In this document: piece by piece, positions 5,392 through 25,737 of the stretch
Layout of the letters: each line of letters begins with the position of its first letter
Position numbering within the stretch: the stretch's first letter is position 1
Assembly (NCBI RefSeq): GCF_001577525.1
Contig: NZ_CP013015.1
Location: 272,173 to 326,337 of the forward strand
Origin: Candidatus Desulfofervidus auxilii
Lineage (GTDB): Bacteria; Desulfobacterota; Desulfofervidia; Desulfofervidales; Desulfofervidaceae
Reading direction: 5' to 3'
Length of the DNA: 54,165 bases
Notes under the pieces: model-generated
What the model was told of the DNA's origin: nothing
Seen by the model: the letters and a program-made list of their open reading frames with translations, nothing else
Database searches by the model: none
Translations under genes and position numbers: made by a program

Positions 5392-6957
5392 ATGAAGGTG
5401 GTTACTGCCCAAGAAATGAAGGCCATTGACCAATTTACCATTAAAGAAGTTGGAATTCCTGGGATAGTGCTTATGGAAAATGCTGGACGGGGGGTATTTA
5501 CTTATATCAAATCCTATTTTTCAGACCATATCAAAAGGGGTGCTATTGGGGTGCTTTGTGGGAAGGGAAATAATGGAGGCGATGGCTTAGTGGTTGCTCG
5601 CTATTTGTATGAAGAAGGTTACCTAGTCAATGTTTTTTTGTTTGGCCAGAAAGAACAATTAAGAGGTGAGGCCTTAGCCAATTTAAGAATTGCAGAGCGT
5701 CTGAATCTCCCCATAATTGAATGTTTGGATGAATCACATTGGTCAAAGGCAAGAGAATATCTTATTGCCTGCAGTCTAATCATAGATGCCATGTTAGGGA
5801 CAGGTTTAAAGAGTGAAGTAAGAGGTTTAATGCGCGATGCAATTGATTTTTTAAATAATATCTTTCCTGGTTTTGTTGTGGCAGTAGATATACCTACAGG
5901 ACTGAGTAGTGATACAGGCTATCCTTTGGGTGAAGCTGTAAAGGCAGATTTAACGGTAACTTTTGGCTTACCCAAGATAGGTCAAATAGTATATCCAGGA
6001 GTAGATTATGTGGGTATTTTAGAAATCGTAGATATTGGTATTCCCCATCAGATTCTTAGTAATTTTTCCTTAAATCACCATCTAGTCACGGATGAAGAGG
6101 TAAAGCATATTTTACGCCCGCGCCAAAAGGCCATACACAAAGGGCAGGCAGGACATGTATTGGTGTTAGCAGGCTCCTCAGGAAAAACAGGGGCAGCCAC
6201 TCTTACCTGTCTTGGTGCCTTAAGGATTGGGGCAGGTTTAGTGACTTTAGGCATTCCCAAAAGCCTGAACCCTATTTTGGAAGTCAAGCTTACTGAAGCA
6301 ATGACTTTACCATTACCTGAAACAAAAGATGCTACTCTCTCCCAGAAAGCTTGGGAAGTAATTGGAAGTTCGGGCTTAAGATATAATGTTATTTGTTTAG
6401 GACCAGGCATAAGCACTCATCCGGCAGTGGAGACTTTAGTAAGAAAGATAATTACCGAAGCTCAAACACCTTTGGTTATAGATGCAGATGGTCTCAATGT
6501 CTTAGCTAATGATTTGGAAATTTTAAGACAAAAAAAGGCAGAAATAGTACTTACTCCTCATCCAGGCGAGATGTCCAGATTGGTTAAAGTACCCACAGAA
6601 ACAGTGTTGAAATCCAAACTTGAATTAACTAGAGAAATTGCTGAGCGATATCAAATAACAGTAGTGTTAAAAATGGCTCATACCTTAATTGCCACTCCTC
6701 AGGGTGAGATTTTTATAAATTCTACAGGTAATCCGGCCATGGCTAGCGGAGGAATGGGGGATGTTCTTACTGGTGTCATTGGGGGATTTATAGCCCAAGG
6801 ATATTCACCCAAAGAAGCATCTATTTTGGGCGTGTTTTTGCATGGTTTAGCTGCTGACTTTTGGTTAAAAGGTCATAGCCAGGCGGGCCTGTTGGCCTCA
6901 GAAGTAGCTGATTATCTTCCCTTAGCCCGACGTGAAATAGAAAAGAAAGAAAAATAA
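5392..6957 (+). CDS. nnrD: Bifunctional NAD(P)H-hydrate repair enzyme (epimerase + ADP-dependent dehydratase)
   Basis: A 521-residue two-domain protein. Residues 1-220 are the YjeF_N/NnrE epimerase domain, with MKVVTAQEMKAIDQFTI at the start and VLCGKGNNGGDGLVVAR for nucleotide binding. Residues 225-515 are the ribokinase-like NnrD dehydratase domain with LTPHPGEMSRL, LKMAHTLI and the catalytic segment GNPAMASGGMGDVLTG. Together they repair hydrated NADH and NADPH in the cytoplasm: the epimerase interconverts R and S forms and the dehydratase restores the cofactor with ADP. Such damage is faster at high temperature. The start has a GGGG ribosome site 8 nt upstream. The gene is apparently monocistronic, and the length is normal for the fused form. 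Confidence 0.96.
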   Translation: MKVVTAQEMKAIDQFTIKEVGIPGIVLMENAGRGVFTYIKSYFSDHIKRGAIGVLCGKGNNGGDGLVVARYLYEEGYLVNVFLFGQKEQLRGEALANLRIAERLNLPIIECLDESHWSKAREYLIACSLIIDAMLGTGLKSEVRGLMRDAIDFLNNIFPGFVVAVDIPTGLSSDTGYPLGEAVKADLTVTFGLPKIGQIVYPGVDYVGILEIVDIGIPHQILSNFSLNHHLVTDEEVKHILRPRQKAIHKGQAGHVLVLAGSSGKTGAATLTCLGALRIGAGLVTLGIPKSLNPILEVKLTEAMTLPLPETKDATLSQKAWEVIGSSGLRYNVICLGPGISTHPAVETLVRKIITEAQTPLVIDADGLNVLANDLEILRQKKAEIVLTPHPGEMSRLVKVPTETVLKSKLELTREIAERYQITVVLKMAHTLIATPQGEIFINSTGNPAMASGGMGDVLTGVIGGFIAQGYSPKEASILGVFLHGLAADFWLKGHSQAGLLASEVADYLPLARREIEKKEK

Positions 6958-7160
6958 TAAATTTCTCCATGCACCTTTTGTCCACGTGAGGTAGAGGTCA
7001 TTTCCCCTTTCTCTTATTTTCTTTATAACTTTGATATAGATAACAAGTTTGGTAATAACAAGAGGCAAAATATTGCGCACAGTGCATGCTCGTTATCTCA
7101 CAAATGCCGTATCGCCAAAATGGGCAATATTTGTGTTTCTTTTTCATGCCCGTCTTCTGG

Positions 7161-7547
7161 TTACTGGAGTGTTTCACTTACTGACGGAGACTGGATTATT
7201 TCCTCTTCTACCTTCATTTGCCTTTCAGATTCTGTAAGAGGGATGTTTGCTAAAAAAAACTCAATGTCTTCAATACTCAATCCAATGGCAAATTCTATAT
7301 CTAAGCCTGATTCACTTAACACAGGACTATCAAAATACATAGTCCAATTTTTTTCTCCTGTGTCCAAGTAAGCCTGCTTAAGCGTCTCCAGTTTTTTCAC
7401 AAAGATAATCTTCTCCATTCTTCCATGTAAATAAAACGAATACCGTCCTGTGGCCTTTGTAATAGCATAATCTTCTTCTCCGTTATCTGTTCTTACCCGA
7501 ATCCTCCAGTAGTTATTTTCCGCCAATAATTTACTCTGTATTCGCAT
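7161..7547 (-). CDS. Hypothetical protein, 128 residues
   Basis: I do not recognise this protein. It starts MRIQSKLLAENNYWRIRV, seems soluble and mixed alpha/beta, has one Trp-rich stretch (GEKNWTMYFDSPVL), and ends in an acidic, low-complexity tail. No signal peptide or membrane segment is visible. A strong ribosome site (GGAGG, 8 nt before the ATG) and a normal codon pattern support a real gene. It stands alone between nnrD (opposite strand) and the ankyrin gene. The 203 bp between its stop and nnrD (6958-7160) hold nothing I can name. Confidence 0.7.
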   Translation of the reverse strand: MRIQSKLLAENNYWRIRVRTDNGEEDYAITKATGRYSFYLHGRMEKIIFVKKLETLKQAYLDTGEKNWTMYFDSPVLSESGLDIEFAIGLSIEDIEFFLANIPLTESERQMKVEEEIIQSPSVSETLQ

Positions 7548-23754: not shown

Positions 23755-23771
23755 TTTCTATTTCGTTGACA
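23755..23771 (+). repeat. 17-bp direct repeat, left copy (flanks the cassette array)
   Basis: TTTCTATTTCGTTGACA; the right copy at 25721-25737 differs only in one base (A for G). The copies enclose almost exactly the cassette array. TTGACA at the end of each may simply be a -35 box. Confidence 0.6.
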
Positions 23772-23784
23772 AATAGGGTAGATT

Positions 23785-23812
23785 TTGACATGGAAAAAAC
23801 ATGTAATATAAT
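23785..23812 (+). promoter_or_regulatory. Strong promoter (Pc-like) reading into the cassette array
   Basis: Perfect TTGACA (23785-23790) and perfect TATAAT (23807-23812) separated by 16 bp, directly upstream of the first cassette junction at GTTAGAT (23826-23832). Integrons drive their captured genes from such a Pc promoter; a second TTGACA lies at 23766-23771. Confidence 0.7.
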
Positions 23813-23825
23813 AAAATAAAGATAA

Positions 23826-23832
23826 GTTAGAT
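23826..23832 (+). other. Putative integron recombination junction (attI-like or decayed attC core)
   Basis: GTTAGAT fits the GTTRRRY core where integron integrases cut between G and TT. It lies at the left edge of cassette 1, 10 bp before the start codon of its gene, and the other junctions in this array have the same short distance to the next gene. The rest of an attI site cannot be recognised without its integrase. Confidence 0.5.
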
Positions 23833-23841
23833 GAATAAATC

Positions 23842-24555
23842 ATGAACAATATCGCAACAATAATAAAATATATTTCCGATGATTTTGAAACATTATGGGA
23901 CTTGATTGCACATAACCAAGAGCATATACCGAGAGGAAATTATCTTTTTGCCGTACAAAGCATGATTTTTTTAGAGGTAGTTTCTAGGGTATGCAATAAG
24001 ATAGACAAATTGCATGAACTATCCCTTGCTATAGAAGATAGATATTTTCAAAAACTCCCTTCATGTTTACGATACTCTTCTAAGGAAAAAGATGACTTTC
24101 TTTTGCCGTATAGAGATGAATCCAGTAAGCATCAATATCTGATTTATTGGCTGTTTAAGGCAGTCAGACATGGAACCGCTCATTATTACGATCAAATAAT
24201 CCTACAAGGTGTAGATTTTTATTTAGACATAGGGGTGACTGGCCCAAAAATTTCACATTGCTTAAGCTACATACATGAAAATAGACCAAAAGTTAAACAT
24301 CTTCAATTTCAAGAAATAGAAGATGAACAGAGTTTTTCTACTTTAGGATTAAAAACAGAGCATAAATTAATTCGATTATACTTTAATCCAGGTCTATTTT
24401 ATTTGGATATAAAAGCTGCCATTAAATCCATTCGTCTTGTTGATAATTATGGTAAGCAACCAATGGATGAGTTTGTATCTGAGTTATATAAAAAAGATAT
24501 GCAAATTAACTGCAAGTTAAAAACATTGGAAAAATGCGTAAAAATAGAGAAATAA
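23842..24555 (+). CDS. Cassette 1 gene: hypothetical protein, 237 residues
   Basis: I do not recognise this protein. It seems cytoplasmic and mainly helical, with an aromatic-rich middle (HQYLIYWLFKAVRHGTAHYYD), an RH..AHY pattern reminiscent of HEPN-like or other nucleic-acid/defence domains, but I cannot prove a family. It is the only gene of a typical integron cassette: the junction GTTAGAT lies 16 bp before the ATG, and an attC begins 3 bp after the stop. No ribosome site precedes the ATG, as is common in cassettes. A strong promoter reads into it. Its base composition is close to the surroundings. Confidence 0.8.
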   Translation: MNNIATIIKYISDDFETLWDLIAHNQEHIPRGNYLFAVQSMIFLEVVSRVCNKIDKLHELSLAIEDRYFQKLPSCLRYSSKEKDDFLLPYRDESSKHQYLIYWLFKAVRHGTAHYYDQIILQGVDFYLDIGVTGPKISHCLSYIHENRPKVKHLQFQEIEDEQSFSTLGLKTEHKLIRLYFNPGLFYLDIKAAIKSIRLVDNYGKQPMDEFVSELYKKDMQINCKLKTLEKCVKIEK

Positions 24556-24557
24556 AT

Positions 24558-24653
24558 CATAACAATTCGCTGCACCTGACCGCTATACCGCTGGCCTGCC
24601 GTCCACCAGTCAGGCAGGCGCTCCACAGCGGCAGGTGAGCTTAGACGTTATAC
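24558..24653 (+). repeat. attC recombination site of cassette 1
   Basis: The site opens with ATAACAA and closes with GTTATAC (24647-24653). Inside are the complementary arms CACCTGACCGC and GCGGCAGGTG, perfect but for one extra A in the left arm, which is the extrahelical base that fixes strand choice in attC sites. A second small hairpin (GCCTGCC...GGCAGGC) makes the variable terminal structure. It lies 2 bp after the stop of the gene before it and 18 bp before the next ATG. Confidence 0.88.
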
Positions 24654-24665
24654 GAAAATTGAAAA

Positions 24666-25139
24666 ATGAAAAAGAGATTTGAAATTGAGCAGATAGGAAT
24701 AATTCATAGCCCATATAAGACCAAGGAGGAATGCCCCATCCAAGGTTCACTTAAGCCAGAAGTAACAGGAAAGATTGAAATATATCCAGAATATGAAGAA
24801 GGATTAGAAACGATAGAAACTTTTTCCCATATCATGTTATTTTATATTTTTGATAGAGCAGGAGAAATAAAATTATCCAGATCAACTTTTCTAGATGATG
24901 CACCTCATGGTGTTTTCGCTTCCCGACACCCTTGTAGACCAAATTTCATCGGTATTTCTATTGTAAAACTAGAAAAAAGAAATGGTAATACATTAGAAGT
25001 AAGCGGAATAGATATTCTGGATAATACACCACTCATAGATATAAAGCCATATATCCCGAGATTTGACTATGTTAAAAATGCAAATAATGGATGGACAGAG
25101 GATAAAAAGATTCGTCAAAAGCCACCAGGCAGAGAATGA
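24666..25139 (+). CDS. trmO: Cassette 2 gene: TrmO/TsaA-type tRNA (t6A37) N6-methyltransferase
   Basis: A 157-residue protein of the UPF0066/TsaA family, which uses SAM to methylate N6-threonylcarbamoyladenosine 37 of certain tRNAs in the cytoplasm. The signatures are IGIIHSPYKTKEECPIQG, FSHIMLFYIFDRA, GVFASRHPCRPNFIGISIVKL and VSGIDILDNTPLIDIKPYIP; SAM-binding residues in RHPxRPN are all present. The C-terminal domain of the longer TrmO is lacking, as in many short forms. It occupies a whole cassette: ATG 18 bp after the preceding attC junction, its own attC starting 4 bp after the stop. TsaA-type genes are plausible cassette cargo, but the selective reason is unknown. Confidence 0.92.
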   Translation: MKKRFEIEQIGIIHSPYKTKEECPIQGSLKPEVTGKIEIYPEYEEGLETIETFSHIMLFYIFDRAGEIKLSRSTFLDDAPHGVFASRHPCRPNFIGISIVKLEKRNGNTLEVSGIDILDNTPLIDIKPYIPRFDYVKNANNGWTEDKKIRQKPPGRE

Positions 25140-25143
25140 AAAC

Positions 25144-25225
25144 GTATAACAAGCCAGTGCACTAGACCGCCAATCCACTGCGCTGCGCTTGCGGTCTTGT
25201 CGGCTGGTGACTTTAGCTGTTGGGT
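25144..25225 (+). repeat. attC recombination site of cassette 2
   Basis: It begins GTATAACAAG and ends with core GTTGGGT (25219-25225), an exact GTTRRRY. The inner arms GACCGC and GCGGTC pair perfectly and the CACTAGACCGC/GCGGTCTTGTCGG region gives an imperfect outer stem with unpaired bases. It starts 4 bp after the trmO stop. The layout (TTTAGC before GTT) is like the TTAGAC before GTT in the first site. Confidence 0.85.
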
Positions 25226-25425
25226 ATTTTAGAAGTTATGTTGGGGGACTTGCATACCGAATTATTGATACCGGTGCATCGGGTGGCATAATCGTATCGC
25301 CGTTACCACTGCAAGATGGAGCGAAAAAAGTAGCCAAAGCCAACCATATCGTCCACGTTCGGTTAGGACCATCAACCCCAGAGAACTTTGCCATCAGTTT
25401 TTTTCAACAAGGTCTTTGTTGGTAG
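25226..25425 (+). pseudogene. Decayed third cassette: C-terminal fragment of an endonuclease-like protein
   Basis: After the second attC junction the plus strand reads GGLAYRIIDTGASGGIIVSPLPLQDGAKKVAKANHIVHVRL and stops at 25425. This resembles the end of a Mrr-like restriction-endonuclease family (VDTGAxGGIIVSPxGLQxGAxKxA), with no start codon or N-terminal domain of its own: the frame upstream is the attC. It therefore looks like the truncated remains of a third cassette. The family assignment is by eye and uncertain. Confidence 0.45.
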
Positions 25426-25636
25426 CATCAATTCTGCCAGTTAGCTCAGTCCTTACCTCATCAATCCTTCGGCTTTGTTCAATTAGATGCCCATTTATGT
25501 CAGAAAGGCGCTTTTCTACAGGGTCAAGCCTTATACCTATCTTTGCCTGATTATCTTTTATCTCTTTAAGTTCAGGTAGGATAAAATTCTTTATAGCAGT
25601 AACCACGCCTTCTTTATTCATACTCCTTACCTTCAT
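25394..25636 (-). CDS. Small coiled-coil hypothetical protein
   Basis: About 75 to 80 residues, mostly helical, with heptad-like repeats in the second half (LSDINGHLIEQSRRIDEVRTELTGRIDATNKDLVEKN), so a coiled coil is likely. It resembles the small coiled-coil proteins linked to DUF or PIN-type modules, but no partner is visible. Possible starts are ATG at 25634-25636 or 25619-25621 (after AAGGAG, which is very close). It converges on the broken third cassette, overlapping it by 32 bp, and is the only array-associated gene in reverse orientation. It has no attC of its own. Confidence 0.55.
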   Translation of the reverse strand: MKVRSMNKEGVVTAIKNFILPELKEIKDNQAKIGIRLDPVEKRLSDINGHLIEQSRRIDEVRTELTGRIDATNKDLVEKN

Positions 25637-25700
25637 ATTCAAGCATAAATTTTATGGACAGGTAAGAACTACCCAAAATACTTGTTAAAAAACCCTTTTC

Positions 25701-25723
25701 CCAAAAATCAATCGCGGATTTTT
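25701..25723 (-). repeat. Dispersed 23-24 bp hairpin repeat, copy 1
   Basis: On the minus strand it reads AAAAATCCGCGATTGATTTTTGG in two parts: AAAAATCCGCG and ATTGATTTTTGG. A near-copy lies in the opposite orientation at 52587-52610. It lies between the coiled-coil gene and ligA. Confidence 0.6.
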
Positions 25724-25737
25724 CTATTTCATTGACA
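25721..25737 (+). repeat. 17-bp direct repeat, right copy
   Basis: TTTCTATTTCATTGACA, one mismatch to 23755-23771. It overlaps the hairpin repeat at its left edge and lies 55 bp before ligA, so its TTGACA may be the -35 box of that gene. Confidence 0.6.

Follow-up and report, generated by a model that had tools for sequence, protein, structure and literature searches.

How does a cassette array come to lie in a chromosome with no integron integrase gene beside it? In complete genomes, such arrays (CALINs) occur about as often as complete integrons do (PMC9024848). Three routes to them are named, off-target insertion, loss of intI and rearrangement, and how CALINs arise is an open question (PMC8618304). 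The array studied here lies at 0.296–0.298 Mb of the closed, single-contig 2.54-Mb genome of Candidatus Desulfofervidus auxilii, within a window of 54,165 nucleotides (C1:272173-326337; unprefixed positions below are those of the window). The genome was compared with those of five relatives, four of the same family (other genera) and one of the same order.

Two attC sites follow the cassette genes

We built a covariance model (R1) from 18 attC-like sites at other loci of the genome, excluding the window sites. The training sites were aligned and then given the attC pairing scheme, and their covariation is 0.371 versus 0.144 for shuffled and at most 0.091 for slid controls. R1 is built from the same genome, its scores are not those of IntegronFinder, and its E-values are rough. 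It gives a class 1 integron attC 23 bits and is thus tuned to this genome, yet not blind to others. Run over the 54-kb window with filters off, R1 finds exactly two sites, with the best other match at 12.4 bits:

24557..24653, + strand, attC1; R1 63.5 bits, rough E 3e-14; ends in GTTATAC
25144..25225, + strand, attC2; R1 48.7 bits, rough E 2.7e-10; ends in GTTGGGT

These are the places and cores that a first-pass annotation of the window had given for two attC sites, and the covariance-model check it had proposed succeeds on both with a model trained outside the window. Each site has RYYYAAC and GTTRRRY cores, paired arms and two bottom-strand extrahelical bases. Specifically, both keep two model-unpaired bases located five pairs apart (C and A on the top strand, G and T on the bottom strand). 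The R'' of attC1 (TCATAAC) is two positions off the RYYYAAC consensus. The bottom strand of attC1 folds into an unusually stable single-stranded DNA structure (z −3.3, 0/200 shuffles), and the bottom strand of attC2 has no significant stability (z −1.5, 18/200 shuffles). The two sites lie at most 4 kb apart, attC1 and attC2 follow the ends of the cassette genes at 1 and 4 bases, and no integron integrase gene is adjacent, as in a CALIN. The attC sites have a G+C content of 56–59%, in a window of 38% and behind AT-rich cassette genes of 31 and 34%. A blastn search of plasmids with attC1 and attC2 gave no match. In several attC sites, a GC-rich palindrome (GGCCTGCC...GGCAGGC) is inserted in the central loop and resembles a REP element (L018 8118-8263, L018 10674-10786 and window 24557-24653).

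Cassettes and cargo

The crossover points delimit two cassettes, each with one gene whose start codon lies 16 (cassette 1) or 19 (cassette 2) bases after the G of the core site:

23827..24647, + strand, cassette 1, running from TTAGAT at the attI-B crossover (see below) to the G at the attC1 crossover
23842..24555, + strand, cassette 1 gene, 237 residues, no family found in sequence searches
24648..25219, + strand, cassette 2, 572 bases; its 5' core GTTATAC exactly complements its own attC R'' GTATAAC
24666..25139, + strand, trmO (tRNA N6-methyltransferase), 157 residues; TIGR00104 134 bits (cut-off 93), PF01980 133 bits

For a cassette to be circular, its start core and the R'' core of its own attC should pair with each other. 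Among 32 cassettes of this genome and two relatives, R'' complementarity averages 5.9/7 with the cassette's own start versus 4.8/7 with the next start, and it is perfect in 13 versus 3 cases. The start of cassette 1 (GTTAGAT) complements the R'' of attC1 at only 4/7 positions, so cassette 1 may have changed since it was a closed circle, either by fusion or by editing of an end.

The cargo had been described as trmO and an unknown 237-residue gene. The former is borne out by both family models, and the latter has no detectable relative: we found none in 58 other genomes, plasmids and viral contigs, and no match in Pfam (above cut-off), NCBIfam, PADLOC, PHROGs or PDB sequences. A structure model from the single sequence reached a pLDDT of 38, too poor for use. 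The protein contains an RHGTAH motif (an R-H-x3-H stretch) that may be reminiscent of HEPN nucleases.

The flanking genes, ligA and a radical SAM gene, lie on different contigs in 5/5 relatives. Since synteny is broken and the two genes are not neighbors there, no empty or complete version of the locus was found in the relatives. The layout is thus not one of ordinary genes conserved among relatives; the flanking genes are apart in all five, and the 237-residue gene is missing from the 58 other genomes.

A decayed third cassette at the right end

Behind attC2, the array continues with the remains of another cassette:

25220..25425, + strand, decayed cassette 3, 95% identical to a cassette at C1:1538k (L020 8502-8686)

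The leader GTTGGGTATTTTAGAAGTTATGTTGGGGGAC and bases 25240–25422 match the complete 1538 kb cassette, with 95% identity over the long part. Approximately 230 bases are missing between the two matching parts, and the 3' end and attC are lost. The array therefore once held at least three cassettes. Its extent had been annotated as 23826–25225, which covers cassettes 1 and 2, but the array reaches further right, to about 25425. The 1.538 Mb array that shares cassette 3 is headed by the other of two attI types described below, and the shared cassette suggests that arrays of this genome have exchanged cassettes or have drawn more than once on the same pool.

Two further elements lie at this end. 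An 82-codon coiled-coil-like frame (25394–25642, − strand), UPF0184-like below cut-off, overlaps cassette 3 with its 3' end. The sequence AATCAATCGCGGATTTTT at 25706–25723 belongs to a dispersed repeat of 18 bases, which has 23 copies when one mismatch is allowed. Other members are found near tyrosine recombinase genes, and one lies ~220 bases behind the intact intI.

A putative attI/Pc platform at the 5' end

A perfect TTGACA-16-TATAAT promoter and a GTTAGAT junction had been noted before cassette 1, and both are present, the junction at 23826–23832. They fall within a module that recurs in the genome:

23762..23830, + strand, attI-B (attI/Pc module, second type), 89% over 70 bases to C1:587900-587969(-); crossover between 23826 (G) and 23827 (TT)
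23785..23812, + strand, TTGACA-16-TATAAT promoter (Pc-like), by direct reading

No other perfect TTGACA/TATAAT pair (spacing 15–19) occurs in the window, and dinucleotide shuffles average 0.18. In the copy at C1:587.9k, homology to the window module ends at AAG/TTAG (the slash marks the crossover), and a different cassette follows. That cassette starts with GTTAGCG and is 7/7 complementary to its attC R'' (CGCTAAC). On the opposite strand is what remains of an integron-integrase gene; it has an internal deletion and is oriented divergently, as in an integron. This remnant is closest to the IntI of relative G004, with 52 residues at 48% and 15 residues at 80% identity (E 9e-11 and 0.002, respectively).

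The window module aligns without gaps over 62 bases to the attI beside the intact intI of G004; this likeness is weak (4/500 shuffles as good). A better alignment is obtained with the attI of G001 (0/500 shuffles as good), which adjoins a broken intI and five attC sites. There is no likeness to the attI of the intact integron of this genome (alignment score 19 versus a shuffled mean of 19.3). Because the 70-base module recurs at 588 kb with a different cassette, stopping at G/TT in both copies, and there stands beside a broken intI, the 5' end is better read as an attI/Pc platform than as a chance promoter. We conclude from these sequence comparisons that promoter and junction most plausibly form the attI/Pc platform of a second lineage of integrons, which at this locus no longer has its integrase gene. 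The first-pass reading of a CALIN with a Pc-like promoter was thus right, with promoter and junction forming a second copy of a module that at its other site adjoins what is left of an intI.

A partial copy of the promoter module (86%) is located at C1:2172451-2172494 (L179 4452-4495), and no attC was found nearby. The sequence TTTCTATTTC(G/A)TTGACA occurs without mismatch exactly twice in the genome, at window 23755–23771 and 25721–25737, as a direct repeat flanking the array. It may be the mark of an insertion or recombination event, or reflect two similar promoters.

Integron loci elsewhere in the genome

No intI had been seen near the array. This holds for the window, where tblastn with both IntI lineages found no intI homology and there is no complete integron, but the genome is not integrase-less: an intact integron integrase lies on the same contig at 2.238 Mb (C1:2238312-2239256; 498 bits, cut-off 265), accompanied on the opposite strand by a normal attI/Pc and an array. 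In addition to this complete integron, the genome holds about 10 integron relics, of which the window array is one. R1 recovers ~35–40 attC sites genome-wide, distributed over the main array (2226–2237 kb), a second array (2249–2255 kb), clusters at 553–557, 1291–1292 and 1538 kb, the window pair and several single sites.

A DNA search with the intact intI region revealed seven further attI copies (eight in total) and intI pieces at three of these loci. In each copy, homology ends at G/TT, followed by a different cassette or sequence. Where the attC of the first cassette is known, its R'' complements the cassette start at 7/7 positions in six copies and 6/7 in one. Outside the intact integron there are four other clusters with more than one attC; each has an attI remnant at its head, and three also have intI fragments. 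Judged by sequence, these attI-headed loci represent relics of integrons that have decayed to different degrees. The genome thus contains two unlike attI types, eight copies of one and at least two of the other. The IntI of G004 is about 51–54% identical to the intact IntI of this genome; the G004 integrase of the second lineage (L176 about 6015-7240) is a 411-codon open frame with an N-terminus ~85 residues longer than that of the IntI of this genome.

Two loci show attI/Pc copies in unusual settings. One copy (98% identical) lies inside the main array (L010 5717-5881; C1:2233716-2233880), with its upstream break at TTAGGC immediately behind an attC, as though it had gone in like a cassette. 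At L139 5780-7030 (C1:1363.8-1365.0k), two copies ~1 kb apart precede a single attC, each followed by different sequence at G/TT. That the platform itself spreads in the genome, the integrase having moved attI and promoter as a cassette, seems doubtful to us. If true, such copying of promoter platforms by the integrase could establish new points of cassette capture around a chromosome.

Origin of the array

We consider it likely that the window region is the remnant of an integron of the second lineage that lost its integrase gene. The attI platform and cassette promoter (23762–23830) would once have stood with an integrase gene running away on the other strand. The integrase would have inserted cassettes at G/TT, giving the order promoter, unknown gene, attC1, trmO, attC2 and third cassette. 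The integrase gene would later have been deleted almost wholly, leaving the radical SAM gene to start 46 bases from the platform. The third cassette would then have lost its middle and attC, the remainder being a promoter that drives two cassette genes. We infer that intI was probably lost at this locus rather than never present, and that the Pc-like promoter is presumably in use. The distant intact IntI may excise or exchange the window cassettes in trans. Against this reading we count that no trace of intI is left in the window, that none of the relatives has the locus in an empty or complete state, that the module has a modest likeness to the relatives' attI, that cassette 1 reaches only 4/7, and that the bottom-strand fold of attC2, taken alone, is not significantly stable.

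An array simply broken off from the intact integron was dropped as an explanation because the attI types differ. Since the 5' site is unlike the attI of the intact integron, the distant intact IntI, whose gene is in the genome, might have put the cassettes into an ordinary G/TT (attG) behind a strong promoter, with no integrase ever present here; attG insertion is described in work by Loot 2024, as cited in PMC12444791 and PMC12901181. The 5' flank, however, is a 70-base module held in common with the 588 kb locus, where another cassette follows and part of an intI remains, and it is similar to the attI of two relatives, which makes this origin unlikely. The same difference in attI type speaks against a larger integron having been split by chromosomal rearrangement, or the attI and three cassettes having been copied away from the integrase through repeat recombination. 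Such a split or copy would fit the separate contigs of the flanking genes in relatives, the TTTCTATTTC repeat found without mismatch only on both sides of the array, and the 18-base repeat found at its right end and behind the intact intI. The relatives belong to different genera, so their gene order says little, and we regard this origin as quite improbable. Chance inverted repeats behind two ordinary genes would suit the weak single-strand fold of attC2, but R1, blind to these sites, scores both far above its 12.4-bit noise floor, the cores of cassette 2 are exactly complementary, and the third cassette is shared with another array; coincidence is barely credible. Integrase loss from a second-lineage integron is thus the reading we prefer.

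Comparison with known systems

Like other CALINs, the window array has two tandem same-strand attC sites behind genes and no intI nearby. It differs in that a recognizable attI/Pc platform still stands at its 5' end, and its genome differs in holding a complete integron and several sister relics, which make the origin of the array readable. These relics span intact intI, truncated intI and none, and with several stages of decay side by side the route through intI loss can be read from the sequence. Searching for a repeat that breaks off at G/TT is a way to test whether a hidden attI lies at the 5' end of a CALIN.

The sedentary chromosomal integrons of Vibrio and Xanthomonas are likewise chromosomal, with diverse attC sites and mostly unknown cargo. 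In Xanthomonas, CALINs distant from the intI locus occur in about half of the genomes (PMC12444791). Here, in contrast, relics are headed by attI copies rather than consisting of attC clusters alone, and there are two unlike attI types. The attG insertions of Loot 2024 (as cited in PMC12444791) also place cassettes outside the main integron, whereas here insertion took place at a module that is repeated and attI-like, not at a unique genomic site. The attI copy inside the main array (L010) recalls the delta-attI gene cassettes of mobile integrons (PMC12901181), but here there are no resistance cassettes and one case only.

Integron cassettes had been thought rarely described in anaerobic sulfate-reducer-like lineages, a view that needs correcting: Desulfobacterota are among the listed integron carriers (PMC8618304, PMC9668308), and lineage rarity therefore adds little. 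CALINs that formed through loss of intI are known as well. We regard the window array as a fine instance of an element type already known, not as a new type. More unusual, perhaps, is that so many attI platforms are scattered over 2.5 Mb, with eight copies of one type and at least two of the other.
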